54,869 bases of DNA. It comes from Bacteroidia bacterium. GTDB lineage: Bacteria; Bacteroidota; Bacteroidia; SpSt-205. Below, one piece after another: positions 8,842 to 48,360 of the stretch (within the stretch, counting starts at the first letter, position 1; each line of letters starts with the position of its first letter). The DNA lies in NCBI GenBank assembly GCA_026413325.1, contig JANZYW010000006.1:1-54869 (forward strand). Direction: 5' to 3'. A program made the translations under genes and the position numbers. The notes under the pieces were generated by a model. The model saw nothing but the letters and a program-made list of their open reading frames with translations. It searched no databases and had not been told where the DNA came from.

Positions 8842-9318
8842 TTAGTTTAGCCTCGGGTAATACCCCAGCAACCATTTCCGCAGCTCCTGGGAAAGGAGAT
8901 CCTCTCCTTTCACGAGATACAGAAGAAAGCGGACAATCCCCATCAGCAAACGGTGCAAAGTGAGCTCCAGCAGTTTCTGCGAGATTCCACATTCCACATC
9001 TAAATGGAAATCTGCATAGAAATACCCCTCTTTCCAGTAGACCCGAGGCCATCGATGTTCCTGGTTCCATCGATTTGCAAGAGAGAGGGCTTCTTGCTCT
9101 CCAATCGGCCTCTCGATCCCTTCATAACGCGCTATGATAGAGAGTATCTCACCTTGTAGACCCTCTCTTAGGATAAATACCCGTACTTGGGCTGGAAACT
9201 CTTCAAAACCTAAAATCAAGTGGTAGTCTCCATCTTTATCTATGGAGTACTTCAAAGAAGATTTCCGCAAAAACCGCTCTATGCCCCGCTCCAGCTTTTT
9301 TCGTAGGTCAGATTCCAT
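8842..9318 (-). CDS. YbjN-like protein, copy 1
   Basis: 158 residues, no signal peptide. It looks like the YbjN / type III chaperone-like fold: an N-terminal helix (KKLERGIERFLRKSS), strands around YSIDKDGDYHLIL and VRVFIL, then the conserved stretch LANRWNQEHRWPRVYW and DFHLDVECGI. The matching segments in the gene at 9489 make the two clear paralogues. The function is unknown. The last 15 residues extend beyond the paralogue. No good -7 box is seen before its ATG. Confidence 0.6.
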   Translation of the reverse strand: MESDLRKKLERGIERFLRKSSLKYSIDKDGDYHLILGFEEFPAQVRVFILREGLQGEILSIIARYEGIERPIGEQEALSLANRWNQEHRWPRVYWKEGYFYADFHLDVECGISQKLLELTLHRLLMGIVRFLLYLVKGEDLLSQELRKWLLGYYPRLN

Positions 9319-9488: not shown

Positions 9489-9920
9489 TCAGCCTTTGTC
9501 ACCTGCCTGATTACCTATGTACAGCAAAAACTGGAGTATAGCCGATAGCAGCCTTCGAAGCGTATGATGTACGAAAGCAGAGGGAAGTCCACACTCTACA
9601 TCTAAATGGAAGTCTCCATAAAAGTTTCCATCTAACCAGTATATGCGCGGCCAGCGGTTTTCTATATTCCAGTTGTTGGCAAGAACGAGGGCATCCTCCT
9701 CTGCGAGCAGAAAGTGGGGGGTTTCAAAACGGCTCACTATCGAGAGTATCTCTCCGTGAGTTCCAGCAGCCATGAGCACTACTTGTACATAGGCAGGTAT
9801 TTCCTCCACTTTGAAGAAAACCCGAAAGTCTCCTTCCTCATCAATGGTATATTTCAGAGAAGATTGCTGGAGGAACCTCTCCATCAACTGCCGCAGTTTC
9901 GTACGTATCTCTTTGTCCAT
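9489..9920 (-). CDS. YbjN-like protein, copy 2
   Basis: 143 residues, a tandem paralogue of the gene at 8842. Shared landmarks are ERFLQQSSLKYTID, GEILSIVSRF, LANNWNIENRWPRIYW and DFHLDVECGL. The ATG at 9920 aligns with the start of the paralogue; an upstream in-frame TTG at 9962 is less likely. The 170 bp between the two copies carry no recognisable gene. The role is unknown. Confidence 0.6.
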   Translation of the reverse strand: MDKEIRTKLRQLMERFLQQSSLKYTIDEEGDFRVFFKVEEIPAYVQVVLMAAGTHGEILSIVSRFETPHFLLAEEDALVLANNWNIENRWPRIYWLDGNFYGDFHLDVECGLPSAFVHHTLRRLLSAILQFLLYIGNQAGDKG

Positions 9921-10115
9921 GAGTCTGATCCCGGTATAAAAAGACCCTTCTTTCGCATGCAAGATAGCAAATTTTTATTCATAAAAAGAGGGCCTTCGCT
10001 CAAGAGTCATAGCCTTTCGTAAGGAGCGGTAGAAGAAGATACCTGCTAAACAGGAACTCACGTCCCTTTGCCCCAGAATATAGGGCACTTTCTCGAAATA
10101 ATAGTGGCTAAATAT

Positions 10116-11073: not shown

Positions 11074-13170
11074 TTACAAGATTGGCTCTCCCAGATGCCG
11101 CACCAAGAGAAGGTCGACTAAACGTCTATCAAAATCAATCCCAACGACCCGCACTTGTACTTCATCGCCGAGGCGAAAGCGACGTCGACTGTATCTCGCT
11201 TTGAGAAAATGCCCTTGGGCATCCCGCTCATAGATATCCGAAGGGAGCTCTCGCATAGGTACGAGACCTTCTGCTCGACTCTCTGTCAACTCCACATACA
11301 GTCCCCAGGATTCGATGCCTACGATGATCCCCGTCAACTCTTTCCCCTCCAGCTGGGCAAGATATTCTAACTGTTTGTATCGAATCGATGCACGTTCGGC
11401 TTGCTCTGCTACCCTTTCCCGCTGAGAACTGTGTCGGCAGAGCTCTTCCAGGCGAGAGCGATCGGGATAGGGAGAAATCGTCCCATCCAATACAGCCGCT
11501 AAAATCCGATGAACCAGTAGATCAGGATACCGGCGGATAGGGCTCGTGAAATGGGTATAGTGCGTAAATCCCAGGCCATAATGACCGATGTTACTCGTCG
11601 TGTAAAGCGCTTTAGGCATGGTACGAATAGCGACAGCTTGAATAATATGAGCCTCAGGCTTGCCTTCAATAGCCTCTATCAGCTCGTTGAGAGAACGAGT
11701 GAGCGAACGGGCGCTGCGAATGTCAATAGTATAGCCGAAACCCTCTAAAAAAAGCTGGAGGGCTCGAAGCTTGTCCGACTTCGGGATGTCATGCACCCGA
11801 TAGACAGTAGGAAGGCCCCGCTGCTGAGAGAGAAATAAGGCCACCTGACGATTTGCCAGAAGCATAAACTCCTCTATCAGCTTATGAGCATCCTTTCGGT
11901 CTTTTACATAAAGAGCCACCGGTCGATATTCCTCATCCAGCTGAAACTTAATCTCTACAGTCTCAAAGCGGATGCCGCCCTCTTTCATCCGAGCCGCGTG
12001 AAGCTGCTTAGCCAGCGTATTCAGAGTACGGAGTTCGGAAGCAAAGGGTCCTGATTCCCCTTCCAAAATGCGCTGAGCTTCCTCATAAGAGAAACGATAT
12101 TGACTGTGGATCAGAGAACGACCTATCCATACGGAATGCAATCTGGCTTTTTTGTCCATCTGTACGACGACTGAGAAAGCCAGGCGATCCTCATGGGGCC
12201 TCAATGAGCACAGATTCGCACTCAACCGCTCTGGAAGCATCGGAAGCGTCCTATCCACCAAATACACACTCGTGCCGCGAGCATGGGCCTCCTTATCTAA
12301 CAAGGAGTCTGGCATCACATAATAACTAACATCCGCTATATGGACACCCACCTCGTATAAACCAGAGGGTAACTCTCGAAAGGACAAGGCATCATCGAAA
12401 TCTTTCGCATCTTCTGGATCTATCGTGAACGTAGGGATGCCTCGAAAATCATGACGCGACTCAATCTCAACTGCAGGGATATCCTCGGGTAAATCAGCTG
12501 CTTCGCGGAGGACTTCTTCTGGAAAGGATTCGGGAAGGGCAAATTCATGAATAATCGCATGAATTTCTGTATGGTGCTGGCGTGGAGCCCCCAGCACACG
12601 TACTATTTCTGCGACGGGATACTTTAGTCCCCAAGAAAGGAAACGAACCGCAACCTTCTGCCCGATCAAATCGGAAGGGACATCCTTAGGGAGCTGAAAG
12701 TCGATGGCAAGGGGAGGCTGCTGAGGGGTCACATAAAGCCTACCATTGCGACCTTCTTCGACTGTCCCCACAAATGTGCGTTGTGTGGGGGCGATGCGGC
12801 GTATAACTCTACCCAGAACTTGCTCTGGATACAGTGCGTAGATTTCTATCTCGACATACTCCCCCGGTAAAAGTCGCTGCTTGCGAAAATCACCGAGAGA
12901 GACCCGCAGGGCAAAGGGATCAAGGAGAACATAGGCTTCTTCATACCGAGTTTGCACCTCCGCTGAAAAAGTTTTACCCAAAAGATTCAGGGCATACCGA
13001 CCCTTTGCGTCTCGATACACCCACCCTTCTCCTACCAGATTTTCCAGCTCGACTGTCAATATCGCTTCGTCCATAAAAGGACGAACTCGCTCCAGAAGCT
13101 GAGAGAGACGCCACTTTTTGGACCCTTTTTGCAGAAAAATAGGAAGGAGGGCGGCAGCTGTAGGACGCAT
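11074..13170 (-). CDS. rnr: ribonuclease R (RNase II/R family exoribonuclease)
   Basis: 698 residues, somewhat shorter than E. coli RNase R but normal for Bacteroidota. It degrades structured RNA 3' to 5'. Seen: an N-terminal winged-helix-like region (residues 15-60), cold-shock domains, the catalytic RNB domain with the aspartate cluster IDPEDAKDFDDA (250-261), the conserved LPMLPERLSANLCSL and FTHYTHFTSPIRRYPDLLVH segments, and a C-terminal S1 domain starting near GKELTGIIVG. Its ATG overlaps the stop of the NHL-OmpA gene (TAATG), so it is probably translationally coupled to that envelope gene. Confidence 0.95.
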   Translation of the reverse strand: MRPTAAALLPIFLQKGSKKWRLSQLLERVRPFMDEAILTVELENLVGEGWVYRDAKGRYALNLLGKTFSAEVQTRYEEAYVLLDPFALRVSLGDFRKQRLLPGEYVEIEIYALYPEQVLGRVIRRIAPTQRTFVGTVEEGRNGRLYVTPQQPPLAIDFQLPKDVPSDLIGQKVAVRFLSWGLKYPVAEIVRVLGAPRQHHTEIHAIIHEFALPESFPEEVLREAADLPEDIPAVEIESRHDFRGIPTFTIDPEDAKDFDDALSFRELPSGLYEVGVHIADVSYYVMPDSLLDKEAHARGTSVYLVDRTLPMLPERLSANLCSLRPHEDRLAFSVVVQMDKKARLHSVWIGRSLIHSQYRFSYEEAQRILEGESGPFASELRTLNTLAKQLHAARMKEGGIRFETVEIKFQLDEEYRPVALYVKDRKDAHKLIEEFMLLANRQVALFLSQQRGLPTVYRVHDIPKSDKLRALQLFLEGFGYTIDIRSARSLTRSLNELIEAIEGKPEAHIIQAVAIRTMPKALYTTSNIGHYGLGFTHYTHFTSPIRRYPDLLVHRILAAVLDGTISPYPDRSRLEELCRHSSQRERVAEQAERASIRYKQLEYLAQLEGKELTGIIVGIESWGLYVELTESRAEGLVPMRELPSDIYERDAQGHFLKARYSRRRFRLGDEVQVRVVGIDFDRRLVDLLLVRHLGEPIL

Positions 13171-15164
13171 TAGGGAATCACCTCAAATTCCACCCGCCGA
13201 TTGAGGGCACGACCTTCAGGCGTCTGGTTATCTGCGATGGGCTGGCTATTTCCATGCCCTACGGCTTCTATCCGATCGGGAGATATTCCTTTTCGGATGA
13301 GATACATTCTTACGTTTATGGCGCGCTCTTCTGAGAGCCGTTGATTGTGCTGAGGGTTGGGATCCCCGATATCAGTGTGTCCATGTACCCGAAGGCGAAT
13401 CTTCGGATTCTTTTTCATGAAATCCGCGATGCGATCGAGAGCAGGATAAGAGGTGGGCTCCAGTACAGGGCTATTCGGTTTGAAGTGGATCCGAGTCTCC
13501 CGTAAAAGAGCTCCACTCACAGCAGGCCGCAAAAAGACCAGCAGAGAATCCCCAGCCTGTACTTCGACCTTCTGAGAGAAAGGAAAGTAACCCTCTTTTT
13601 CTATCTCTACCTCAAAGGTACCCGAAAGGGTAGGCTGAAACTCGCCTTGTGGAGAGGTAATGCCGGACTGCTGTACAGCTCCTGCACCGATAAGCTTCAC
13701 CTGTCCCCCCACAACCGGGGCTTGTGTGGACTCGTCTAAGACTCGTATGAAGAACGGCCTCGGCTGAGGAGAGAAGCGCTTGAGACGAACCTCGACTTGC
13801 AAGGGACTTTCTTGTACTCGGATCGTACGCTGAAGAGGGATATAACCTGCTTTCTCGAAAAATATCGTGAGGGTATAATCCCCTGGTGACAAAGAGGCCT
13901 CCGCTTCTCCTTGTGAGTTGGTAGTAAGGGGAAAACTTTTTTGAGAGGGGGTGGCTCGAATATGCACCTCAGGTAGTGGGGTTCCCTTCTCGTCATCCAG
14001 TACTCGGATTCGAAGGCTAACAGAGAGAGGGGGCTGTACTTTGGGAGTATCTACTACCTGGGGCCGTTTGTACTTTTCTAACTTTTCGATAGCGATGCGT
14101 CGAATGGCTGCATTTCGGTAATCACACACGTAGAATACGGTGGGCTTCTCACCTATGCAGATTTCGACTGGCTCATAGAAACGAGCATACTTGCCATTTC
14201 CGTCGATCCATCCAGGGCGCCCTGTACCTGCCAAGATCTCAACTGTACGCTCAGCTGCGTTGATCTGATAGACGATATGGCGCCCCCCATCTGCGATATA
14301 CAAGTTTCCGTCGGGATCTACAGCTACCCCTCCTCCATGTCCTCCGCCACTGGTGACGAAACTCAGCCCCCCTGCGAGCTCCCCTCGAATGGTCCAGCCT
14401 CTAAAGTTTAGGTCGACAAACGTAGTCGTCTCCCCCTGAGGAGTGACCTTTCGGATACAGCGATTCCCTGCATCGACGATGTAGAGATTGTCATTTTTAT
14501 CGATTGCCAGGCCCACTGGAGAGCTGAACTGGACCTGCTTTCCAGACCCATCTCGATACCCCGGTGAGCCCGTTCCTGCCACGGTAGTCACCTTCCCTTG
14601 AGGAGTAACTTTACGTAAAGCATTATTCCCCGCATCTAAAACCCAAAGATTCCCACGGCTATCGCGTACGATAGCGATTGGAAAAAGAAAGCGAGCCTCT
14701 TCCCCCACCCCATCGCGAAACCCCCCGCCTTTCCCTCCGGCCAACGTGCTCACTTGCCCTTCTGACGTAATGCGTCGAATGGCATGGTTGAAATAGTCAC
14801 ATACATACAGGTTGCCTGCAGGATCGATAGTAAGCCCATGCGGACTATTGAATGCCGCTTCTTCTCTTTCTCCATCCTGGAAGCCTGCGCTACGGGGCTG
14901 GCCTGCTACCAAAACCACCCTGCCGTCCGCGGTCACCTTCCGAACGCAGTGGTTCTCATCGTCTGAGAAGTAGATGTTAGCCGCCTTGTCCACTACGATT
15001 CCATTCGGACGATTAAGGGCAGCTTCCAAAGCAGGCCCCCCTCGGTAACCTACCCTTCCACTTCCTGCGACAGTAGTGACTTCGACTTTATAGGTGACCT
15101 CTAGGGTCTGTGCAACAAGGCCTCCTATGAGAAGGATACCCCCGAGGCGAATGAATCCACGCAT
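13170..15164 (-). CDS. NHL-repeat, carboxypeptidase-regulatory-like and OmpA-domain envelope protein
   Basis: 664 residues. Order: signal peptide (cut probably after GGLVAQ), about five to six NHL-type propeller blades (roughly 28-370; repeated pattern FxxPxGLxxDxxGNLYVxDxxNxxIRKVT), two carboxypeptidase-regulatory-like beta domains (about 385-460 and 475-545), and a C-terminal OmpA peptidoglycan-binding domain (about 555-664) with IHFKPNSPVLEP, HGHTDIGDPNPQHNQRLSEERA and NRRVEF. It is probably anchored to peptidoglycan with an outward or periplasmic propeller; the ligand is unknown. The gene begins 20 bp after tRNA-Gly and its stop overlaps the RNase R start. The gene at 22236 has a parallel design. 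Confidence 0.85.
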   Translation of the reverse strand: MRGFIRLGGILLIGGLVAQTLEVTYKVEVTTVAGSGRVGYRGGPALEAALNRPNGIVVDKAANIYFSDDENHCVRKVTADGRVVLVAGQPRSAGFQDGEREEAAFNSPHGLTIDPAGNLYVCDYFNHAIRRITSEGQVSTLAGGKGGGFRDGVGEEARFLFPIAIVRDSRGNLWVLDAGNNALRKVTPQGKVTTVAGTGSPGYRDGSGKQVQFSSPVGLAIDKNDNLYIVDAGNRCIRKVTPQGETTTFVDLNFRGWTIRGELAGGLSFVTSGGGHGGGVAVDPDGNLYIADGGRHIVYQINAAERTVEILAGTGRPGWIDGNGKYARFYEPVEICIGEKPTVFYVCDYRNAAIRRIAIEKLEKYKRPQVVDTPKVQPPLSVSLRIRVLDDEKGTPLPEVHIRATPSQKSFPLTTNSQGEAEASLSPGDYTLTIFFEKAGYIPLQRTIRVQESPLQVEVRLKRFSPQPRPFFIRVLDESTQAPVVGGQVKLIGAGAVQQSGITSPQGEFQPTLSGTFEVEIEKEGYFPFSQKVEVQAGDSLLVFLRPAVSGALLRETRIHFKPNSPVLEPTSYPALDRIADFMKKNPKIRLRVHGHTDIGDPNPQHNQRLSEERAINVRMYLIRKGISPDRIEAVGHGNSQPIADNQTPEGRALNRRVEFEVIP

Positions 15165-21939: not shown

Positions 21940-22153
21940 CATGAGATATCACTTGGTCTAAAGCCCGCTGAAACTTAACGAAGTCTTCCTTATACAGAAA
22001 GATCTTCTGCTTCTGGCTCACTTCTCCAGTGAAATCTCGTTTCGTCTCTGTGATAGTGATGTAGTAATCACGATTTCGCGTGGCTCGCACATCGAAGATG
22101 TACGTTCTTTTCCCCGCGCGCACTTTAACTGAATACACTTCTCTCGCTTCCAT
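21866..22153 (-). CDS. DUF3276 / PUR-alpha-like nucleic-acid-binding protein
   Basis: 95 residues. Matches the Bacteroidota DUF3276 family, related to the PUR domain that binds single-stranded DNA or RNA: EVYSVKVRAGKRTYIFDVR, DYYITITETKR and KIFLYKEDFVKFQRALDQVI. The ATG at 22153 gives the family N-terminus, and a perfect -7 box stands 23 bases upstream, so this is one of the few genes here with a real though short leader (about 18 nt). The acidic C-terminal tail is encoded antisense to the end of the sensor kinase. Confidence 0.85.
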   Translation of the reverse strand: MEAREVYSVKVRAGKRTYIFDVRATRNRDYYITITETKRDFTGEVSQKQKIFLYKEDFVKFQRALDQVISHVRTDLLPDYDYERSSLEGDEESAG

Positions 22154-22176
22154 ATACCGCCCGTATCGCTTCGCTG

Positions 22177-22184
22177 CAAAGGTA
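22177..22184 (-). promoter_or_regulatory. -7 promoter box of the DUF3276 gene
   Basis: Minus-strand TACCTTTG, a perfect TAnnTTTG, 23 bases before the ATG at 22153. Confidence 0.7.
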
Positions 22185-22223
22185 CAAAAGTTCCAGATAG
22201 AAAACTGCCTCCTTGAGATACCG

Positions 22224-22231
22224 TATTTTTG
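22224..22231 (+). promoter_or_regulatory. -7 promoter box of the FG-GAP/OmpA gene
   Basis: TATTTTTG, a perfect TAnnTTTG, four bases before the ATG at 22236. Confidence 0.75.
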
Positions 22232-22235
22232 GGGC

Positions 22236-24575
22236 ATGAAAACACAGGTGTGGGGATTTTCCCTTTATAGTCTGCTCTTCGCTTTACAGTTGCAGGCACA
22301 GCTCCTTAACCGCTCTGGTAAAGACAGCACGATATTTATTTCTGGGCAGGTTTTTCTCCCCAACTACCCCATTGCTACTTGCTCCAATCCTTGGGGGAGT
22401 GCGGTTGCTGACTTTACCGGCGACGAATGGGAAGATATCCTTATCGCTTGCCGCTCAGAAGGGAAGCTTACCCTTTACATCAATGACCGGAAAGCCGAGT
22501 TTCCTCGGACGCGGAGCTTTCCCAGCTTGCGGGAGGTCTGGAAACCCCTCGCTGTAGATCTCAATGGCGATGGTCATAGAGATATCGTTGCGCTCTCTTA
22601 TAGTGAAGCTAAAGTCGCCTGGCATCTCAATAGCGGCCCCGGGCAGCTTCCTCTCACCAACTCCATTAGCGTGGGAAAAGGTCCTCACCATGTCTTCTCT
22701 GGCGACTGGGATGGAGATGGCCAGGTGGACATAGGCGTAGTCTGCCATGACGAAGGAAGCGTACACTTGCTCCGTACAGGCTCACGGGGAAGCCTACAGC
22801 CGTACAAAGTACTCAAGGCAGCCAATCGACCTCGTGTCGCCGTCGCACGCGACCTGGACAAAGACGGTAAAGCAGATATCGTAGTGGGAGGAGAAGAACC
22901 CTTTCTTCTTCTTTTTTATGGAAAAGGCGGATATGCCACAGAGGGTCAAAAACTCTCCTGTCCCCCCTCTATTTGGGCCATGGATGTAGGAGACCTCAAT
23001 AAAGACGGGCGAGCCGATATCGTCCTGGGTACCTATATCGGCACTTCTATTGTCACCCTCTTCAATATGGGATATGGGAGATGGGAGGAGCCTCGAATTC
23101 AACCATCAGGAAACTACAACTTCGCTCTCTACCTCGGCGATTTCGACAGAGACGGCGATCTCGACGTTGTCACCGTCTCTGCCAGAGACCATGTTATCAA
23201 TATACATCTCAATGACGGAAAGGGAAATCTCTCAGACAGACATCGTATAGGGACAGGTCAGTGGCCGATATCCTTAACGCTGGCAGATGTGAATGGCGAT
23301 GACAACGTAGATTTTATCACTACTTCGGTCCATGACCACGCCATAAATGTACACCGAAATGTGCCAGTGACCCCACCCAAACCTGTCCTGATAGCTATCC
23401 AGGGGCGCCTTATCGATGGAGATACAGGACAGGAGATCGCTGGCAATGTCTCTTTGATCGATACTACTGCTCTTGAGCGGGTAAACGGCCGAGATGAAGC
23501 TTTTCAAGTACAGCGGTTTTCGCCAGGTAAACCTTTCCGTTTCGAAGTAACAGGAGGGAGACATATCCTCCTGCTCAAAGGTACTGCCCCAGAGTATCCC
23601 TCTGCGGAGATACGGATTGTCCTACCCCCTCTCAAGGACTTACCAGATTCCATCCTGAAAGAGGGATTGCACCGAGATATCATCCTTCGTCGGATACAAC
23701 GGGTGAAAGTATGGGGGACCGTTACTGATGCCACCAAGAAAGACCCTATCCCTCGCGCCACAGTACGGCTTACCACCCAGGCAGGAGAAGTGGTGGCTGA
23801 ACTTTCGACAGACAGCCGAGGGTATTACGAAACCTATGCTCCTTTGGGGATCAATCACCGCATACAAGGAGAAGCTCCTTCTTATGAGCCAGCTTGGCAG
23901 GTTTTCTCCCTCGGGCGAGAACACTACCCCCAAGGCCTGCGTGTGGATCTCTCCCTTTCTCCTGCTGCCCCCTCTCGTACCTGCATAGAAGGGCTCGTAC
24001 TCCACCAGAATACCCGTTCACCCATTCGGGAAGTAACTATTTTTTTCATAGATCGAGCAGGCCTTCGACGGCGGGTCACCTCCCAGGCAGGAGGTACCTT
24101 CAAGGGATGCCTCCCCCCTGGTTTCTATCAAGTCGAGATTATTCACAAAGGCTTTTTCCCGTACCGAGATTCGGTCGACATCCCAGAGGGAGGAACCAAA
24201 CGGGAGTTTCTACTCACTCCTGTTGAAACAGAAAAAGCCATCGTCCTGCGAAACATCTATTTCGATTATGACAAAGCAACCCTCCGCTCTGAATCCATAG
24301 AAGAGCTGGAGCGAGTGGTTAAATTTCTGAATGAAAACCCCTCTTTACGCGTAGAAATAGCAGGACATACGGACAGTGACGGCTCGGATGCCTACAACCT
24401 GCGTCTTTCTCAAGCCCGAGCCCAGTCTGTGGTGGATTACCTCATCTCACGGGGTATCGATGCTTCTCGCCTGGTTGCCAAGGGATATGGAGAAAGCAGA
24501 CCTGTCGCCCCAAATGATACACCTGAAAACAAACAGAAAAACAGACGCACCGAACTCAAAATCCTCGGTATATAG
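22236..24575 (+). CDS. FG-GAP/VCBS propeller, carboxypeptidase-regulatory-like and OmpA-domain envelope protein
   Basis: 779 residues. Signal peptide (about 1-21, LFALQLQA), then an FG-GAP/VCBS-type propeller to about 380 with seven calcium-loop-like repeats of the form DxNGDGxxDI (for example DLNGDGHRDI, DWDGDGQVDI, DFDRDGDLDV). Three beta domains of the carboxypeptidase-regulatory type follow (about 390-660), and an OmpA domain closes the protein (about 670-779; IYFDYDKATLR, AGHTDSDGSDAYNLRLSQARA, NRRTEL). It is probably peptidoglycan-anchored. Ligand unknown; the architecture parallels the NHL-OmpA protein at 13170. The ATG at 22236 is set by the -7 box and the signal peptide. The GTG of the next gene overlaps its TAG stop by one base. 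Confidence 0.86.
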   Translation: MKTQVWGFSLYSLLFALQLQAQLLNRSGKDSTIFISGQVFLPNYPIATCSNPWGSAVADFTGDEWEDILIACRSEGKLTLYINDRKAEFPRTRSFPSLREVWKPLAVDLNGDGHRDIVALSYSEAKVAWHLNSGPGQLPLTNSISVGKGPHHVFSGDWDGDGQVDIGVVCHDEGSVHLLRTGSRGSLQPYKVLKAANRPRVAVARDLDKDGKADIVVGGEEPFLLLFYGKGGYATEGQKLSCPPSIWAMDVGDLNKDGRADIVLGTYIGTSIVTLFNMGYGRWEEPRIQPSGNYNFALYLGDFDRDGDLDVVTVSARDHVINIHLNDGKGNLSDRHRIGTGQWPISLTLADVNGDDNVDFITTSVHDHAINVHRNVPVTPPKPVLIAIQGRLIDGDTGQEIAGNVSLIDTTALERVNGRDEAFQVQRFSPGKPFRFEVTGGRHILLLKGTAPEYPSAEIRIVLPPLKDLPDSILKEGLHRDIILRRIQRVKVWGTVTDATKKDPIPRATVRLTTQAGEVVAELSTDSRGYYETYAPLGINHRIQGEAPSYEPAWQVFSLGREHYPQGLRVDLSLSPAAPSRTCIEGLVLHQNTRSPIREVTIFFIDRAGLRRRVTSQAGGTFKGCLPPGFYQVEIIHKGFFPYRDSVDIPEGGTKREFLLTPVETEKAIVLRNIYFDYDKATLRSESIEELERVVKFLNENPSLRVEIAGHTDSDGSDAYNLRLSQARAQSVVDYLISRGIDASRLVAKGYGESRPVAPNDTPENKQKNRRTELKILGI

Positions 24576-43199: not shown

Positions 43200-45101
43200 A
43201 TGTGTAGAATAGGAGGACTCTGGTATCGGAAAGGGCCCATACCCCTGCCTGCTCTCCTCTCTCGACTGCAGGAGATGGCTTCCTTACAGATGCACGGCGG
43301 ACCAGATGGCGAAGGCGTATGGCTTCACCCAGAGAAGTGCCTCGGATTCGCTCATCGAAGATTGGCTATCATCGATCTTTCTCCAGCTGGAGCCCAACCC
43401 ATGCAGAAAGGCTCGCTGGTTATCACATACAACGGAGAAATCTACAACTACAAAGAACTCCGAACGGTATTGGAAAAGCGTGGCTATACTTTCTCGAGCA
43501 CTTCTGATACAGAAGTTCTTCTGTGGGGGTGGAAAGAGTGGGGGCCCGACCTTCTACCCCGCCTACGGGGAATGTGGGCGTTTGCTTTATGGGATGGGGA
43601 GTCGCTGTGGCTCGTACGAGACCGCTTCGGAGTAAAACCCCTCTTTTACTTTCTATCAGATGCGCTTCTGGCTTTCGCCTCTGAGCTTCCCGCTCTCCTC
43701 GCAGTACTCCCTGCATCTCCCTCGCCTTTCCTGCCGGCATTACCCATGTATCTCAGTTATGGATTTATCCGAAATCCCTACACATTCTATGAGGGGGTTC
43801 TACAGGTGCGTCCTGGGGGATATTTACATATCTCCGAGAAAGGGGCTAAAGAACGGCCATACTGGGACCCCCTCCAGGTCTTCTTCCCCGAAAAAAAGGT
43901 TACCTATTCTACGGAAGAAGTAGAAGCCCAGCTCTTGTCCAGCTTCGAAAGAAGGCTCATCGCAGACGTTCCAGTAGGTCTTTTTCTCAGTGGTGGGATA
44001 GATTCGTCTCTGGTCGCAGCTTTGCTCTCGGTAAAAACGCAAACCTTTCTCCCCACCTTTACCCTGGGTTTCGATGAAAATAGCTATGACGAAAGCTTCT
44101 GGGCTGCCCGCATCGCAGCTCATCTTCACCTCCCCCACTTCTCTACTCGGATCTCTCTCAGCGAGCTAATCCCCCTGGTAGAAAAAATACCCTTGCTCTA
44201 TGGACAACCTTTCGGAGACGCCTCTGCATTAGCTGTCTATGCGCTCGCCCAGTTTGCTTCTCAGCAAGTCAAAGTCGTCCTGTCCGCAGATGGAGGGGAT
44301 GAGCTATTTGGAGGCTACGTACGCCATACACAATCGATCTCGTGGCTTCGAGCTGCGGGCAGAATCCTACGGACCTTCCCCTGGAGTGGAAGGCACCTTG
44401 CGAAGCTACCCCTCTTCAAGAATCGTTTTCACAATCTATCAGCTAAGCTCCTGAAACTCTCTCATTTTCATGGTCACCATTACGGGGAAATGGTACAGGC
44501 CTTCCCAGAATCTTTGATTTCCTCCTATTTTACAGAACCTATATCCTCCCTGGTGTATATCGATGAGCCGCTTCCAGAGCCCTGGTACAGCCTGGGAAGC
44601 CGCCAATACGCAGATCTGCGTATTTATCTCTCCGATGACGTCCTCCAGAAAGTCGATCGCGCGACCATGGCCCATGCCCTGGAGGCCAGAGAGCCTTTCT
44701 TGGATCCTGAACTGGTGGAACTCGCAGGAAGGCTACCTGCCCTCGCTAAGGTACAAGGGACAGTGACAAAACGTATCCTCCGGGAGATTCTACATCGCTA
44801 TATCCCCTCTCCTCTATGGAAGAGGCCTAAACAAGGATTCGCTATTCCAGTCGCAGCTTGGCTCCGTAACCCGTTAGCGGAGCGTCTCCGGTACTATGTC
44901 TACAGTGAAGAGAGCCCCCTACGATTTTTACCGCTTGACCTGGAAAAACTCCGTGCAACCCATCGGCATCTGGAGGAAGGAGAAGAAGGACTCGGCCTCT
45001 TGTTTTGGCATCTTCTCGTTCTTGGGCTGTGGGGCGATTGGTATCCTACCAAATCTCTAAAAGCCGATAGTCTATCCCAGGCCAAAGGCGAGTCGGCTTA
45101 G
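43200..45101 (+). CDS. asnB: asparagine synthase (glutamine-hydrolysing)
   Basis: 633 residues. The N-terminal Ntn glutaminase domain has the required Cys2 (M-C-R-I-G-G) and the ITYNGEIYNYKEL and RDRFGVKPLFY segments. The C-terminal synthetase domain has the ATP loop FLSGGIDSSLVAAL, VLSADGGDELFGGY and the DDVLQKVDRATMAHALEAREPFLD block. It could make asparagine or act as an asparagine-synthase-like amidotransferase on another acid; context does not decide. AGGAGG occurs in codons 4-6, after the start, not before it. The last 56 bp overlap the convergent repeat-protein gene. Confidence 0.9.
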   Translation: MCRIGGLWYRKGPIPLPALLSRLQEMASLQMHGGPDGEGVWLHPEKCLGFAHRRLAIIDLSPAGAQPMQKGSLVITYNGEIYNYKELRTVLEKRGYTFSSTSDTEVLLWGWKEWGPDLLPRLRGMWAFALWDGESLWLVRDRFGVKPLFYFLSDALLAFASELPALLAVLPASPSPFLPALPMYLSYGFIRNPYTFYEGVLQVRPGGYLHISEKGAKERPYWDPLQVFFPEKKVTYSTEEVEAQLLSSFERRLIADVPVGLFLSGGIDSSLVAALLSVKTQTFLPTFTLGFDENSYDESFWAARIAAHLHLPHFSTRISLSELIPLVEKIPLLYGQPFGDASALAVYALAQFASQQVKVVLSADGGDELFGGYVRHTQSISWLRAAGRILRTFPWSGRHLAKLPLFKNRFHNLSAKLLKLSHFHGHHYGEMVQAFPESLISSYFTEPISSLVYIDEPLPEPWYSLGSRQYADLRIYLSDDVLQKVDRATMAHALEAREPFLDPELVELAGRLPALAKVQGTVTKRILREILHRYIPSPLWKRPKQGFAIPVAAWLRNPLAERLRYYVYSEESPLRFLPLDLEKLRATHRHLEEGEEGLGLLFWHLLVLGLWGDWYPTKSLKADSLSQAKGESA

Positions 45102-46764
45102 GACCTGCATACTTCTTGAGCCACTCCTCTAACCGCACTCTTTCTTCAGGATATGCTCGAACGAGCCAGGCGATCTGTCTCTTCCGTACCAGTTTTTCGA
45201 TCTGTATCGCTTTTGTTTCCTCTATCGTCAGCCGTTTCTTGACGAGCTGGAGACCTCCCATTTCACCAAATCCCTCGATTCCAGGAAGGCCTTTGATATA
45301 TCGACGACGGGTAGAAGACCCTCGAGCAGGCTCCAGAACCCACACCTCTATTTGCTTGACAGCCCAAACTTTTCGCTTCTCTAATCGAGGTTTCTTCAAC
45401 AAACGACCCTGTCTATCATAAAAGTGTGCAAAAACATATACCCTCCATCCCATTTTTACTCCCGCTACTGGGACCCGACCATATGCTTGGGTATTGACCC
45501 ATTCTCCGACGGAAAAGCCACTATACGCACTGACCAGTTCGCAGTGCTTGCGATGATGGGTGAAAAGATATCTCAAGTCATGGGCTAATCGTTCAGTAGC
45601 CGTCATCACACCTCTTCGCTGCGCATCACAGGGTACTTCATAAGCGGAAGGAGGGAGGTGTCGTATGGAAGGAGAAGCACACGTGTAGCGATCGAAGTTT
45701 TTATGCGCAACCTGTGGCAGGCCACAACTCACTCGTTCTGTCCGCCGGCGGTAGTGCTGCACCACAGGCATACGACAAGCGTATTTGTCAAATTGCTTGT
45801 GAGAGATTCGAGAGGGGTGACAAGCTATTTTCTCTGCCCACTGACGATGACGGATAGAAGATACTTCGCAAGCATACTTATCGAAGTTGCGGCGCTGTAA
45901 ATCAAAGGGAATACAGGTTATGCCCTCTGCATAGGTTCTGTGCGAGACGGAGGGGGGGGTACATCCCCCCTCTGAAGAACGCTTATGTCGCGGAGGGCGA
46001 ACCGTATAGAGAAAGCGCTGCGGGACCGAACGATGCGGAATTATTCTCGCTCGGTATAGGTGCCTTTCAGCTCGTTCGGGACGATGTGGGATCGCTGGTA
46101 GAGGAATGAAAAAATTCCGTTCTTCCCGTCGATGAGAGGGGGTAGAAGGGCGGAGAGTGTGCTTTTCAGCTCGCTGTGTATGAGGAGTTGGAGAGAATCG
46201 AGTACGCAGACGTTCCGCCCTTTGGGAATGGGAGAGGGCGGGAGAAGGTATGCGGCGCCTTTCCGCTATAGCAGGCCGATGCCGCCTTCGAAGGAATGGG
46301 AAGGAAAACCGTTCTGCGCGATTTGCATGGGGAATATCTCTCTGAGCAAGTCGCATCCGCTCAGAAGCTCGAGGAGAGTGGCGAAGTTTAGCCCCTGGAA
46401 TGCGATACCGCTCCGCTCGCATCGAAGCCCTTGAGCGACGGCTCTGAAGGGGAAGGCGAAACCGCTCCGCTCGCTCCAAGTGACGTACCGAGGGCTCATA
46501 AGGCCGAAAAGCCTCCCAACGCTCCATCGGCTTGTGTCGAGGCGTATATACAAAGGGACGGAAACGCTCTGCTCGACGAGTCGGACGAGGGCGACCATAC
46601 CGGTCTACACGGGTCTCGGCTCGCTTCTGGACTCGACGAGGACGCCGCTGCTCTTCCACGCGAACCCGTTCTGCACATTCAGGACCTGTACAACGAGGAG
46701 GAGCCTTTAGATCTTGCCCAGAAACCCACCCGAAGATCAAGAAAAATCCTAAAAGACGAAACAT
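45046..46764 (-). CDS. secreted basic protein with about 22 His-periodic 16-residue units
   Basis: 572 residues, family not recognised. Signal peptide about 1-16 (LLGFFLIFGWVSG). Residues 31-380 are imperfect units of 15-18 residues, each starting at [AF]-[ED]-[RK]. The acidic residue is at 32, 50, 66, 84, 100, 118, 135, 151, 168, 184, 200, 216, 233, 249 (Gln), 265, 280, 295, 311, 326, 343, 358 and 376. A histidine follows exactly 11 residues later in about 16 units. N-terminal units are very Arg-rich (RAERFR); from 265 on each unit also has a Cys, mostly at +4 (FDKYAC, AEKIAC, TERVSC). A non-repeat C-terminal domain of about 190 residues follows. The ATG at 46764 is preferred to a TTG at 46773. 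Secretion, and use of His/Cys for metal or disulfides, are inference. Confidence 0.7.
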   Translation of the reverse strand: MFRLLGFFLIFGWVSGQDLKAPPRCTGPECAERVRVEEQRRPRRVQKRAETRVDRYGRPRPTRRAERFRPFVYTPRHKPMERWEAFRPYEPSVRHLERAERFRLPLQSRRSRASMRAERYRIPGAKLRHSPRASERMRLAQRDIPHANRAERFSFPFLRRRHRPAIAERRRIPSPALSHSQRAERLRTRFSPTPHTQRAEKHTLRPSTPSHRREERNFFIPLPAIPHRPERAERHLYRARIIPHRSVPQRFLYTVRPPRHKRSSEGGCTPPSVSHRTYAEGITCIPFDLQRRNFDKYACEVSSIRHRQWAEKIACHPSRISHKQFDKYACRMPVVQHYRRRTERVSCGLPQVAHKNFDRYTCASPSIRHLPPSAYEVPCDAQRRGVMTATERLAHDLRYLFTHHRKHCELVSAYSGFSVGEWVNTQAYGRVPVAGVKMGWRVYVFAHFYDRQGRLLKKPRLEKRKVWAVKQIEVWVLEPARGSSTRRRYIKGLPGIEGFGEMGGLQLVKKRLTIEETKAIQIEKLVRKRQIAWLVRAYPEERVRLEEWLKKYAGPKPTRLWPGIDYRLLEIW

Positions 46765-46778: not shown

Positions 46779-46971
46779 CGGCAAGAAAAGGAAAAGCACT
46801 CTAAATCGAGCCCCTACCAGTCGTAAAAACAGGCATACCCCCCAGAAACAGATGGCTCCCGACCTACTCATTCAGAGAGAGTATCTATTGTGATGAGGGA
46901 CCTTCTAATACCAACCCTGTGCAAGTTTTTCGGAGTATCAGAACTCACTCCTTTCAGTGATGAAAAAGAGA

Positions 46972-46979
46972 TATCATTG
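46972..46979 (+). promoter_or_regulatory. -7 box of the type IX cargo protein gene
   Basis: TATCATTG, one mismatch at the fifth base, four bases before the ATG at 46984. Apart from this box and the box at 46771, the gap 46765-46983 shows nothing recognisable. Confidence 0.45.
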
Positions 46980-46983
46980 CAGC

Positions 46984-48360
46984 ATGTCTATTCGATTAGG
47001 GATACTATTAGTCGGCTTTCTCTCTTTGTGCTGGGCTCAACCCATACAAGCCGTATTTGGCTTACTCGAAGGGAATGGGAATACCTATCCTCACACGGGA
47101 TTATACTACCGGTGGGAAGATCCAGGAGCCGGTGCTATGACCAGTGGGATAGGAGATATCCATGGAGTTGAACCCTTTGGAAATGACCTCGCTTATGACC
47201 CCCGCACTAAGCTTCTCTTCGTGGTGGGAGGAAGCAACCCTACTACTGGAAACTGGCGGGGAACGGTATATGCTCTGGATATCTGGCGCTCCCAAACTCC
47301 CCTCTCCACCCGATTAGACAGCATCGGCGCACGCCGTATTGCTGTAAAAGACACGCTTCTTCTGGTGACTCGATATTGGTACCCTTACTTTACAGCCTAC
47401 CGTATCTCTTATAACCCAGCTTTGCACACCTTGCAGTTGGATTCACTGTGGTCTCCGGTTAGTCCTCTGTTGCGGAACGTACCCGACGGGCTCCTGGTAC
47501 GAGGGGATACGGCCTTTATCAGTATCTCATACAGCAATACGACCTTTTTACCTGATAGCCTCGTGTTGGCGATTAACTTGCGAAATCGTACAGTAGCTGG
47601 TTCATGGCAAGTTTACCCCAACCCTAACGAGATCGTTCGTATCGGCGGAAACCTGTATGTGCAATGTTTTGGAAACTTCTCCAGCCTCCGGGTAGCACGC
47701 ATAACACCCTCTTCACCCGTCGTGACAGTATGGAATACAGGATACCAGAGTTTAGGTGGATTTGCCACTGATACGGGAGGCGTAAAAGATACGATTCTAT
47801 TCTGGAATGTCGATACGCTTCGAGCATTTCACGTAACGACCGGTCAGATTGCTCCAGGGGCGTACTTGGGGATTACTTCTACCACGGCTCCTTTTTCAGC
47901 CTACGGCCTCATGTGGGTAGGGAGGCAGCTCTGGCTAAGCTTTACGAACTACTCCGACACGAGCTTGATTGTTTTCAGAGACCCGATTTGGGAACCTACT
48001 CCCCCTCACTTCGACACTGCTTTCGTGAGCATGGGATTGGGAGGGGTGGGATATCCCTCTCTCAGAAGGTTCATCTATGTGAGCGACGATACCAGTCGCA
48101 CCACTACCGCTCTTGCGGCTTTTTCTTCTACTCCTGGTGCTGTACACGTCTGGCCCACCCCCACCCTACAGCATCTTTTCTGGAAATCACAAGCTCCAGT
48201 GGAGACCCTCATCCTCTACAACGCCCAAGGACAGATGATTCGTCGCTACACGCACCCGGTGAACCCCTTGCCGGTAGAAGACTTACCTGCAGGTCTTTAT
48301 TTCCTTACAGTCCAACAAGTGGGAGGAGGCATGCACTCAGCTAAGTTTTTCAAGGAATAG
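46984..48360 (+). CDS. secreted protein with type IX sorting domain
   Basis: 458 residues. Signal peptide about 1-19 (GILLVGFLSLCWAQP), a beta-rich, propeller-like middle of unknown function (repeated short strands with aromatic residues, for example NDLAYDPRTKLLFVVGG), and a C-terminal type A sorting domain: VETLILYNAQGQMIRR, LPVEDLPAGLYFLTVQ and a final SAKFFKE strand. Such tails direct export across the outer membrane by the type IX secretion system and are removed afterwards. The ATG at 46984 follows a -7-like box by four bases; an in-frame ATG at 46957 would add nine residues before the signal peptide. Confidence 0.78.
   Translation: MSIRLGILLVGFLSLCWAQPIQAVFGLLEGNGNTYPHTGLYYRWEDPGAGAMTSGIGDIHGVEPFGNDLAYDPRTKLLFVVGGSNPTTGNWRGTVYALDIWRSQTPLSTRLDSIGARRIAVKDTLLLVTRYWYPYFTAYRISYNPALHTLQLDSLWSPVSPLLRNVPDGLLVRGDTAFISISYSNTTFLPDSLVLAINLRNRTVAGSWQVYPNPNEIVRIGGNLYVQCFGNFSSLRVARITPSSPVVTVWNTGYQSLGGFATDTGGVKDTILFWNVDTLRAFHVTTGQIAPGAYLGITSTTAPFSAYGLMWVGRQLWLSFTNYSDTSLIVFRDPIWEPTPPHFDTAFVSMGLGGVGYPSLRRFIYVSDDTSRTTTALAAFSSTPGAVHVWPTPTLQHLFWKSQAPVETLILYNAQGQMIRRYTHPVNPLPVEDLPAGLYFLTVQQVGGGMHSAKFFKE

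Follow-up and report, generated by a model that had tools for sequence, protein, structure and literature searches.

The spruce budworm antifreeze protein is a Cys-containing beta-helix built from 15-residue coils. Within Bacteroidia, GldN/PorN, a subunit of the type IX secretion ring, is exported, as are MORN-like proteins that carry short repeats. Here we describe a gene in a window of 54,869 nucleotides (the whole of the stretch analysed; contig JANZYW010000006.1 of a Bacteroidia bacterium, assembly GCA_026413325.1) whose product resembles each of these in some respect. Its C-terminal repeat units share with the antifreeze protein a period of about 15 residues and one Cys per unit; however, the protein is rich in Arg and Lys rather than Thr, and has neither a sequence match to the antifreeze protein nor a predicted solenoid. 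Its likeness to the MORN-like proteins lies in being an exported Bacteroidia protein with short repeats. Its likeness to GldN/PorN, which consists of export and of similar short motifs in the C-terminal domain, is superficial. Kinship of that domain with GldN/PorN (PF19841) was suggested by eye and was ruled out by profile comparison: hhalign of the domain against 31 GldN proteins gave a probability of 0.1-0.2% over 7-18 aligned columns, and the true GldN of this genome is a separate gene on another contig.

The gene is present in a single copy in its own genome and lies on the minus strand. An alternative TTG start is possible 9 bases upstream of the ATG. The features of the gene and its product are as follows.

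46764-45046, minus strand: whole gene, starting with ATG at 46764 and encoding a predicted exported protein of 572 aa
46717..46764, minus strand: predicted signal peptide, residues 1-16; M1 and Q17 are invariant in alignment A1
46675..46692, minus strand: N-terminal motif C25-x-G-P-x-C30; C25, G27 and C30 are invariant in A1
45640..46569, minus strand: full array, residues 66-375, of 19 units [DE]0 ... H11, each of 15-18 residues, with the register read by hand
45976..46569, minus strand: units 1-12, Cys-less and Arg/Pro-rich, of the type R-A-E-[RK]-x(9)-H
45640..45975, minus strand: units 13-19, seven Cys-type units with Cys at position 4 in each, [DE]-[RK]-[YFL]-x-C-x-P-P-x-[ILV]-x-H
45622..45639, minus strand: end cap Y-x-V-P-C-D-[AP] (YEVPCDA here), the last half-unit, which joins the array to the C-terminal domain
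45049..45630, minus strand: conserved C-terminal domain of about 190 residues (379-572), beta plus helix in AlphaFold2

A short basic stretch sits between the CxGPxC motif and the array. The motif is retained in several distant relatives, in the version CKGEGC in G123, and is missing from L096, L100 and L101. The C and D of the end cap are nearly invariant in the alignment of relatives, and the C-terminal domain has an invariant Cys408 and a Y/F-P-E-E motif at 538-541.

In Bacteroidetes, cleavage by signal peptidase I leaves Gln as the first mature residue, the so-called Q-rule (PMC5837995; PMC10653852). The repeat protein has the sequence that this rule describes, a signal peptide followed directly by Gln: Gln17 is invariant in the 10 aligned sequences and is also present in G012 and L102. 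We infer that the signal peptide is cleaved before Gln17. A type IX sorting domain (TIGR04183) was not found in the protein in the NCBIfam search. Because Gln17 fits the Q-rule and the protein is without such a sorting domain, it most likely resides in the periplasm or is anchored in the envelope.

The array is defined by the spacing between an acidic residue and a His. Sixteen of the 19 units have E or D at position 0 (the other three have R, Q and S) and 17 have H at position 11 (the other two have S and R); both residues occur together in 14 of 19. The units themselves measure, in order, 18, 16, 18, 17, 16, 17, 16, 16, 16, 17, 16, 15, 16, 15, 16, 15, 17, 15 and 18 residues. Across the array region searched there are 14 D/E-to-H pairs at distance 11, compared with a mean of 1.9 in composition shuffles (n=5000), which never exceeded 9 pairs at any distance from 1 to 24; the maximum in first-order Markov sequences (n=20,000) was 10 pairs at any distance from 1 to 20. 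The acid-to-His spacing is thus real. An earlier, sequence-only reading of this DNA had proposed about 22 units, about 16 of them with the exact spacing; the repeat holds and those counts were slightly too high. Its description of units that vary from 15 to 18 residues around a fixed distance of 11 is borne out by the hand-read register and the shuffles. It had also argued against recent duplication, and we agree: pairwise DNA identity between units averages 36% (maximum 51%), mean amino-acid identity is 23%, and Tandem Repeats Finder (score 30) found no tandem array. Since the units are so far diverged and that program finds no array, recent duplication does not explain the spacing.

The same spacing is found in other genomes. 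Orthologues are intact in 11 further genomes and range from 392 to 582 aa, showing that the number of units turns over while the core spacing stays constant. Distance 11 is the peak in 10 of 10 relatives of the same genus (weakly so in the shortest, L010) and in 4 of 5 more distant relatives with His units. The Cys of the C-terminal units, which lies seven residues before His in six units of the window protein, provides an anchor that was not used in the spacing count. When the units of the genus are aligned on this Cys, the acid falls at Cys-4 in 79% and the His at Cys+7 in 75% of them, which confirms the register independently.

Family members occur in all 12 genomes of the same taxonomic family, namely 11 of the genus and one of another genus. 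Those relatives that carry names, among them KatS3mg025, KatS3mg026, SKYB7, SKYG57 and RSWP8, are metagenome assemblies of Bacteroidia, and the names suggest a hot-spring origin for many of them. The protein is therefore present in every searched genome of one lineage, which includes these probable hot-spring Bacteroidia, suggesting a permanent function in the envelope. A profile of the C-terminal domain found matches in one further family of the order and, in the whole class, in 23 of 395 genomes from scattered families, three of them partial and one (G081) false. G081, a weak match (E 0.004), was rejected as a family member; its protein is MORN-like, with a different, longer repeat and without the C-terminal domain. 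A sample of 396 genomes of the phylum contained no family member beyond the window's own, and a search for plasmid-borne relatives found none. A signal peptide and basic arm recur in the distant relatives, as does the same unit, 15-16 residues long, in all but two branches; some have nearly perfect 15-residue units, e.g. LDGTACARLRIRHRS. When a three-unit profile of the repeat was searched against the 395 class genomes, clear matches were confined to genes with the C-terminal domain, and the remaining matches had E-values of 0.005-0.01; the G059 gene is split across two contig ends. Because clear matches to the repeat occur only in such genes, repeat and domain form one architecture. By sequence comparison, these exported, strongly basic repeat proteins are a real, previously unnamed family in some Bacteroidia, in which the spacing is kept across species and which is defined by the conserved domain of about 190 residues. 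We consider the family worth defining.

Library searches returned nothing for either part of the protein. Neither the repeat nor the C-terminal domain had a significant match in Pfam, NCBIfam or PHROGs when the window protein and seven divergent members were searched; the best single-member scores were at chance level (HTH_23, E 0.013; PHROGs of unknown function, 0.02-0.04; SPMIP11, 0.066). Solved structures gave no significant match by sequence (best E 1.5 with the domain profile), fold searches gave nothing significant (the best E-value, 0.17, came with a meaningless TM-score of 0.06), and a keyword literature search gave nothing relevant on the repeat. The match behind a Tudor/SH3-like reading of the beta part, to 5dma at E 1.6-2.1, is at chance level. 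That the repeat would prove unfamiliar had been anticipated from the sequence, and these searches uphold it. Both the repeat and the domain are thus absent from all libraries tested. Exported repeat proteins as such are common and of an already known kind; what sets this one apart is a strongly spaced repeat paired with a conserved domain, each matched by none of these libraries.

AlphaFold2 gave the repeats of the full protein a pLDDT of 33-42 and no secondary structure, from a shallow alignment of 10 sequences, and much of the C-terminal domain a pLDDT of 70-88. The domain modelled alone scored 66 (pTM 0.60); its model places helices after long strands. The sequence-only reading had named structure prediction as a check, and a prediction lacking a periodic fold as an outcome that would refute it. 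The model shows no periodic fold; with an alignment of only 10 related sequences, however, this negative is weak evidence about the units.

Exchanges at the two conserved positions bear on what the spacing is for. Arg replaces His in 17% of the Cys units within the genus. Phe stands at the His position in 73% of the Cys-anchored units of L102, which represents the branch formed by G123, G051 and G090. At the acid position, Gln is found in 71% of the Cys units of the second genus of the same family (L041), and Gln or Asn predominates in G347 (12 of 13 such pairs). In the G186 protein, the C-terminal domain and a basic arm are present but units of this kind are not. The ligand residues that would mark a metal-binding His repeat are therefore not conserved across the family, while the spacing stays fixed. 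Metal ligands are not normally exchanged for Phe or Gln at unchanged spacing, which suggests that the role of the spaced His is structural and not one in metal binding. The acid position (Asp, Glu, Asn or Gln) could be a turn cap, and His or Phe a stacking or packing residue. The earlier proposal of a structural or ligand-binding constraint thus survives in part: the spacing appears to be kept by selection, and the exchanges of His for Phe and of acid for Gln/Asn speak against the ligand role. When a repeat diverges this far and its spacing stays fixed, either a fold or a ligand may be the cause; the family offers a clear case in which to test this, with members that have Phe for His, Gln for the acid or no repeat at all as natural material for the decision. 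In the Phe branch we also observed that L102 and L110 (G123, G051) have alternating YSC/F units (YSCAPKTKKFYSFKRYSC) in place of the His units, and a long C-terminal tail rich in Lys and Glu.

Charge is conserved throughout. The mature proteins have a pI of 10.5-12.1 and a net charge of +11 to +17 per 100 residues in 18 of 18 members, including L101, which has no such repeat, and L102, which has no His at that position. At a net charge of +12.5 per 100 residues, the window protein is far more basic than any other long reading frame of the window, the runner-up having +5.9. All members have in common an export signal, a basic repetitive arm and the C-terminal domain. High positive charge, kept in all members, is a feature necessary for a polyanion-binding class and no proof of it. 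As a separate observation, the mature protein has exactly 11 cysteines, an odd number, in 9 of 18 members despite differing numbers of units; one Cys may be free or paired between molecules.

Polyanion binding, which the sequence-only reading had listed among its possible functions, is the reading that we prefer, tentatively and at somewhat less than an even chance: a periplasmic or cell-envelope protein whose cationic, regularly spaced arm binds an anionic polymer of the envelope. In this view, units of 15-18 residues make up an extended and strongly basic arm at the N-terminus, and a beta-plus-helix domain at the C-terminus holds it. Candidate ligands of the arm are extracellular DNA, lipopolysaccharide, exopolysaccharide and a polymer associated with peptidoglycan. 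In each unit, a fixed core made up of an acid or Gln, an aromatic residue, Cys or a small residue, Pro, Ile/Val, and His or Phe would form a small structural module, for example two short extended segments and a turn, that sets out Arg and Lys on both sides of the His, and the variable linker from His to the next acid would be a tolerated loop. The last seven units, with one Cys each, may be tied by disulphides beside the C-terminal domain, stiffening the arm there. Units that change in number around a constant core spacing are what one would expect of an arm for binding or for spacing.

Spacing without binding is what the strongest rival proposes, and we regard it as a serious possibility, if an unlikely one. 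Here the array would fold into a rigid rod or a beta solenoid laddered by disulphides, with one coil per unit and with His/Phe, Ile/Val and Cys stacked in columns, and the protein would serve as a strut in the envelope, a surface fibre or a spacer. Such a rod is consistent with the alternation of the conserved positions (2 and 4, 9 and 11), with the turn-like H-[RK]-x-x-[DEQN] segment, with C-terminal units that carry one Cys each at a period of 15-16 residues, with an aromatic residue taking the place of His, and with the near-perfect 15-residue units of distant members. It fits less well with N-terminal units that are rich in Arg and Pro, with linkers that differ from unit to unit, and with the AlphaFold2 model and the fold searches.

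A purely charged, disordered arm needs no strict 11-residue spacing, so some real fold was probably missed. A bolder form of the polyanion-binding reading, to which we give a smaller chance, is that the units adopt an ordered fold not described before, a coil of two segments in which His/aromatic residues and Cys stack in columns and Arg and Lys form a regular ladder. The protein would then be a natural cationic ruler that fits a periodic anionic polymer in the Bacteroidia envelope, with the new C-terminal domain holding one end of the ruler.

It is improbable, in our judgement, that the arm is a disordered, low-complexity basic spacer whose unit pattern is a relic of ancient duplication. Low AlphaFold2 confidence, the Arg/Pro-rich composition and the rapid change in unit number would all suit such a spacer, but acid and His are in register across the class despite 23% amino-acid and 36% DNA identity between units, and the register would have decayed along with the other positions had selection not kept it. 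The proposal of a turn-by-turn His that binds metal or haem, in which the acid or Cys would join His as a ligand, draws on the constant placing of His in 17 of 19 units and on the Cys seven residues before it in six, but is the least probable of all given the exchange of His for Phe in one branch and of acid for Gln/Asn in two others, the Arg found for His within the genus, and the G186 member.

Around the repeat gene, no neighbour common to different families was found. A convergent asparagine-synthase gene (asnB) adjoins it in 6 of 11 relatives of the taxonomic family, including one of another genus. In the window, the 3' ends of the repeat gene (minus strand) and the asparagine-synthase gene (plus strand) overlap by 56 bases (45046-45101); since they lie tail to tail, the two genes are not an operon. 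On the other side, the gene at 46957-48360 is divergent from the repeat gene; its product is exported and matches TIGR04183, a type IX sorting domain, and a relative of this product is encoded next to the repeat gene in L041. G240 and G059 have a same-strand reading frame of 189-190 aa immediately next to the repeat gene (L104:6067-6639 and L109:6713-7282), and the N-terminal region of its product is rich in Cys (CKGxCC).

Elsewhere in the window, 13170-15164 and 22080-24575 each encode a large OmpA-ended protein of the envelope in which NHL or FG-GAP propeller repeats are combined with carboxypeptidase-regulatory-like domains, a PorE-like layout that scores far below the PorE cut-off. Adjacent YbjN-family genes at 8842-9318 and 9489-9962 are an apparent tandem duplication.
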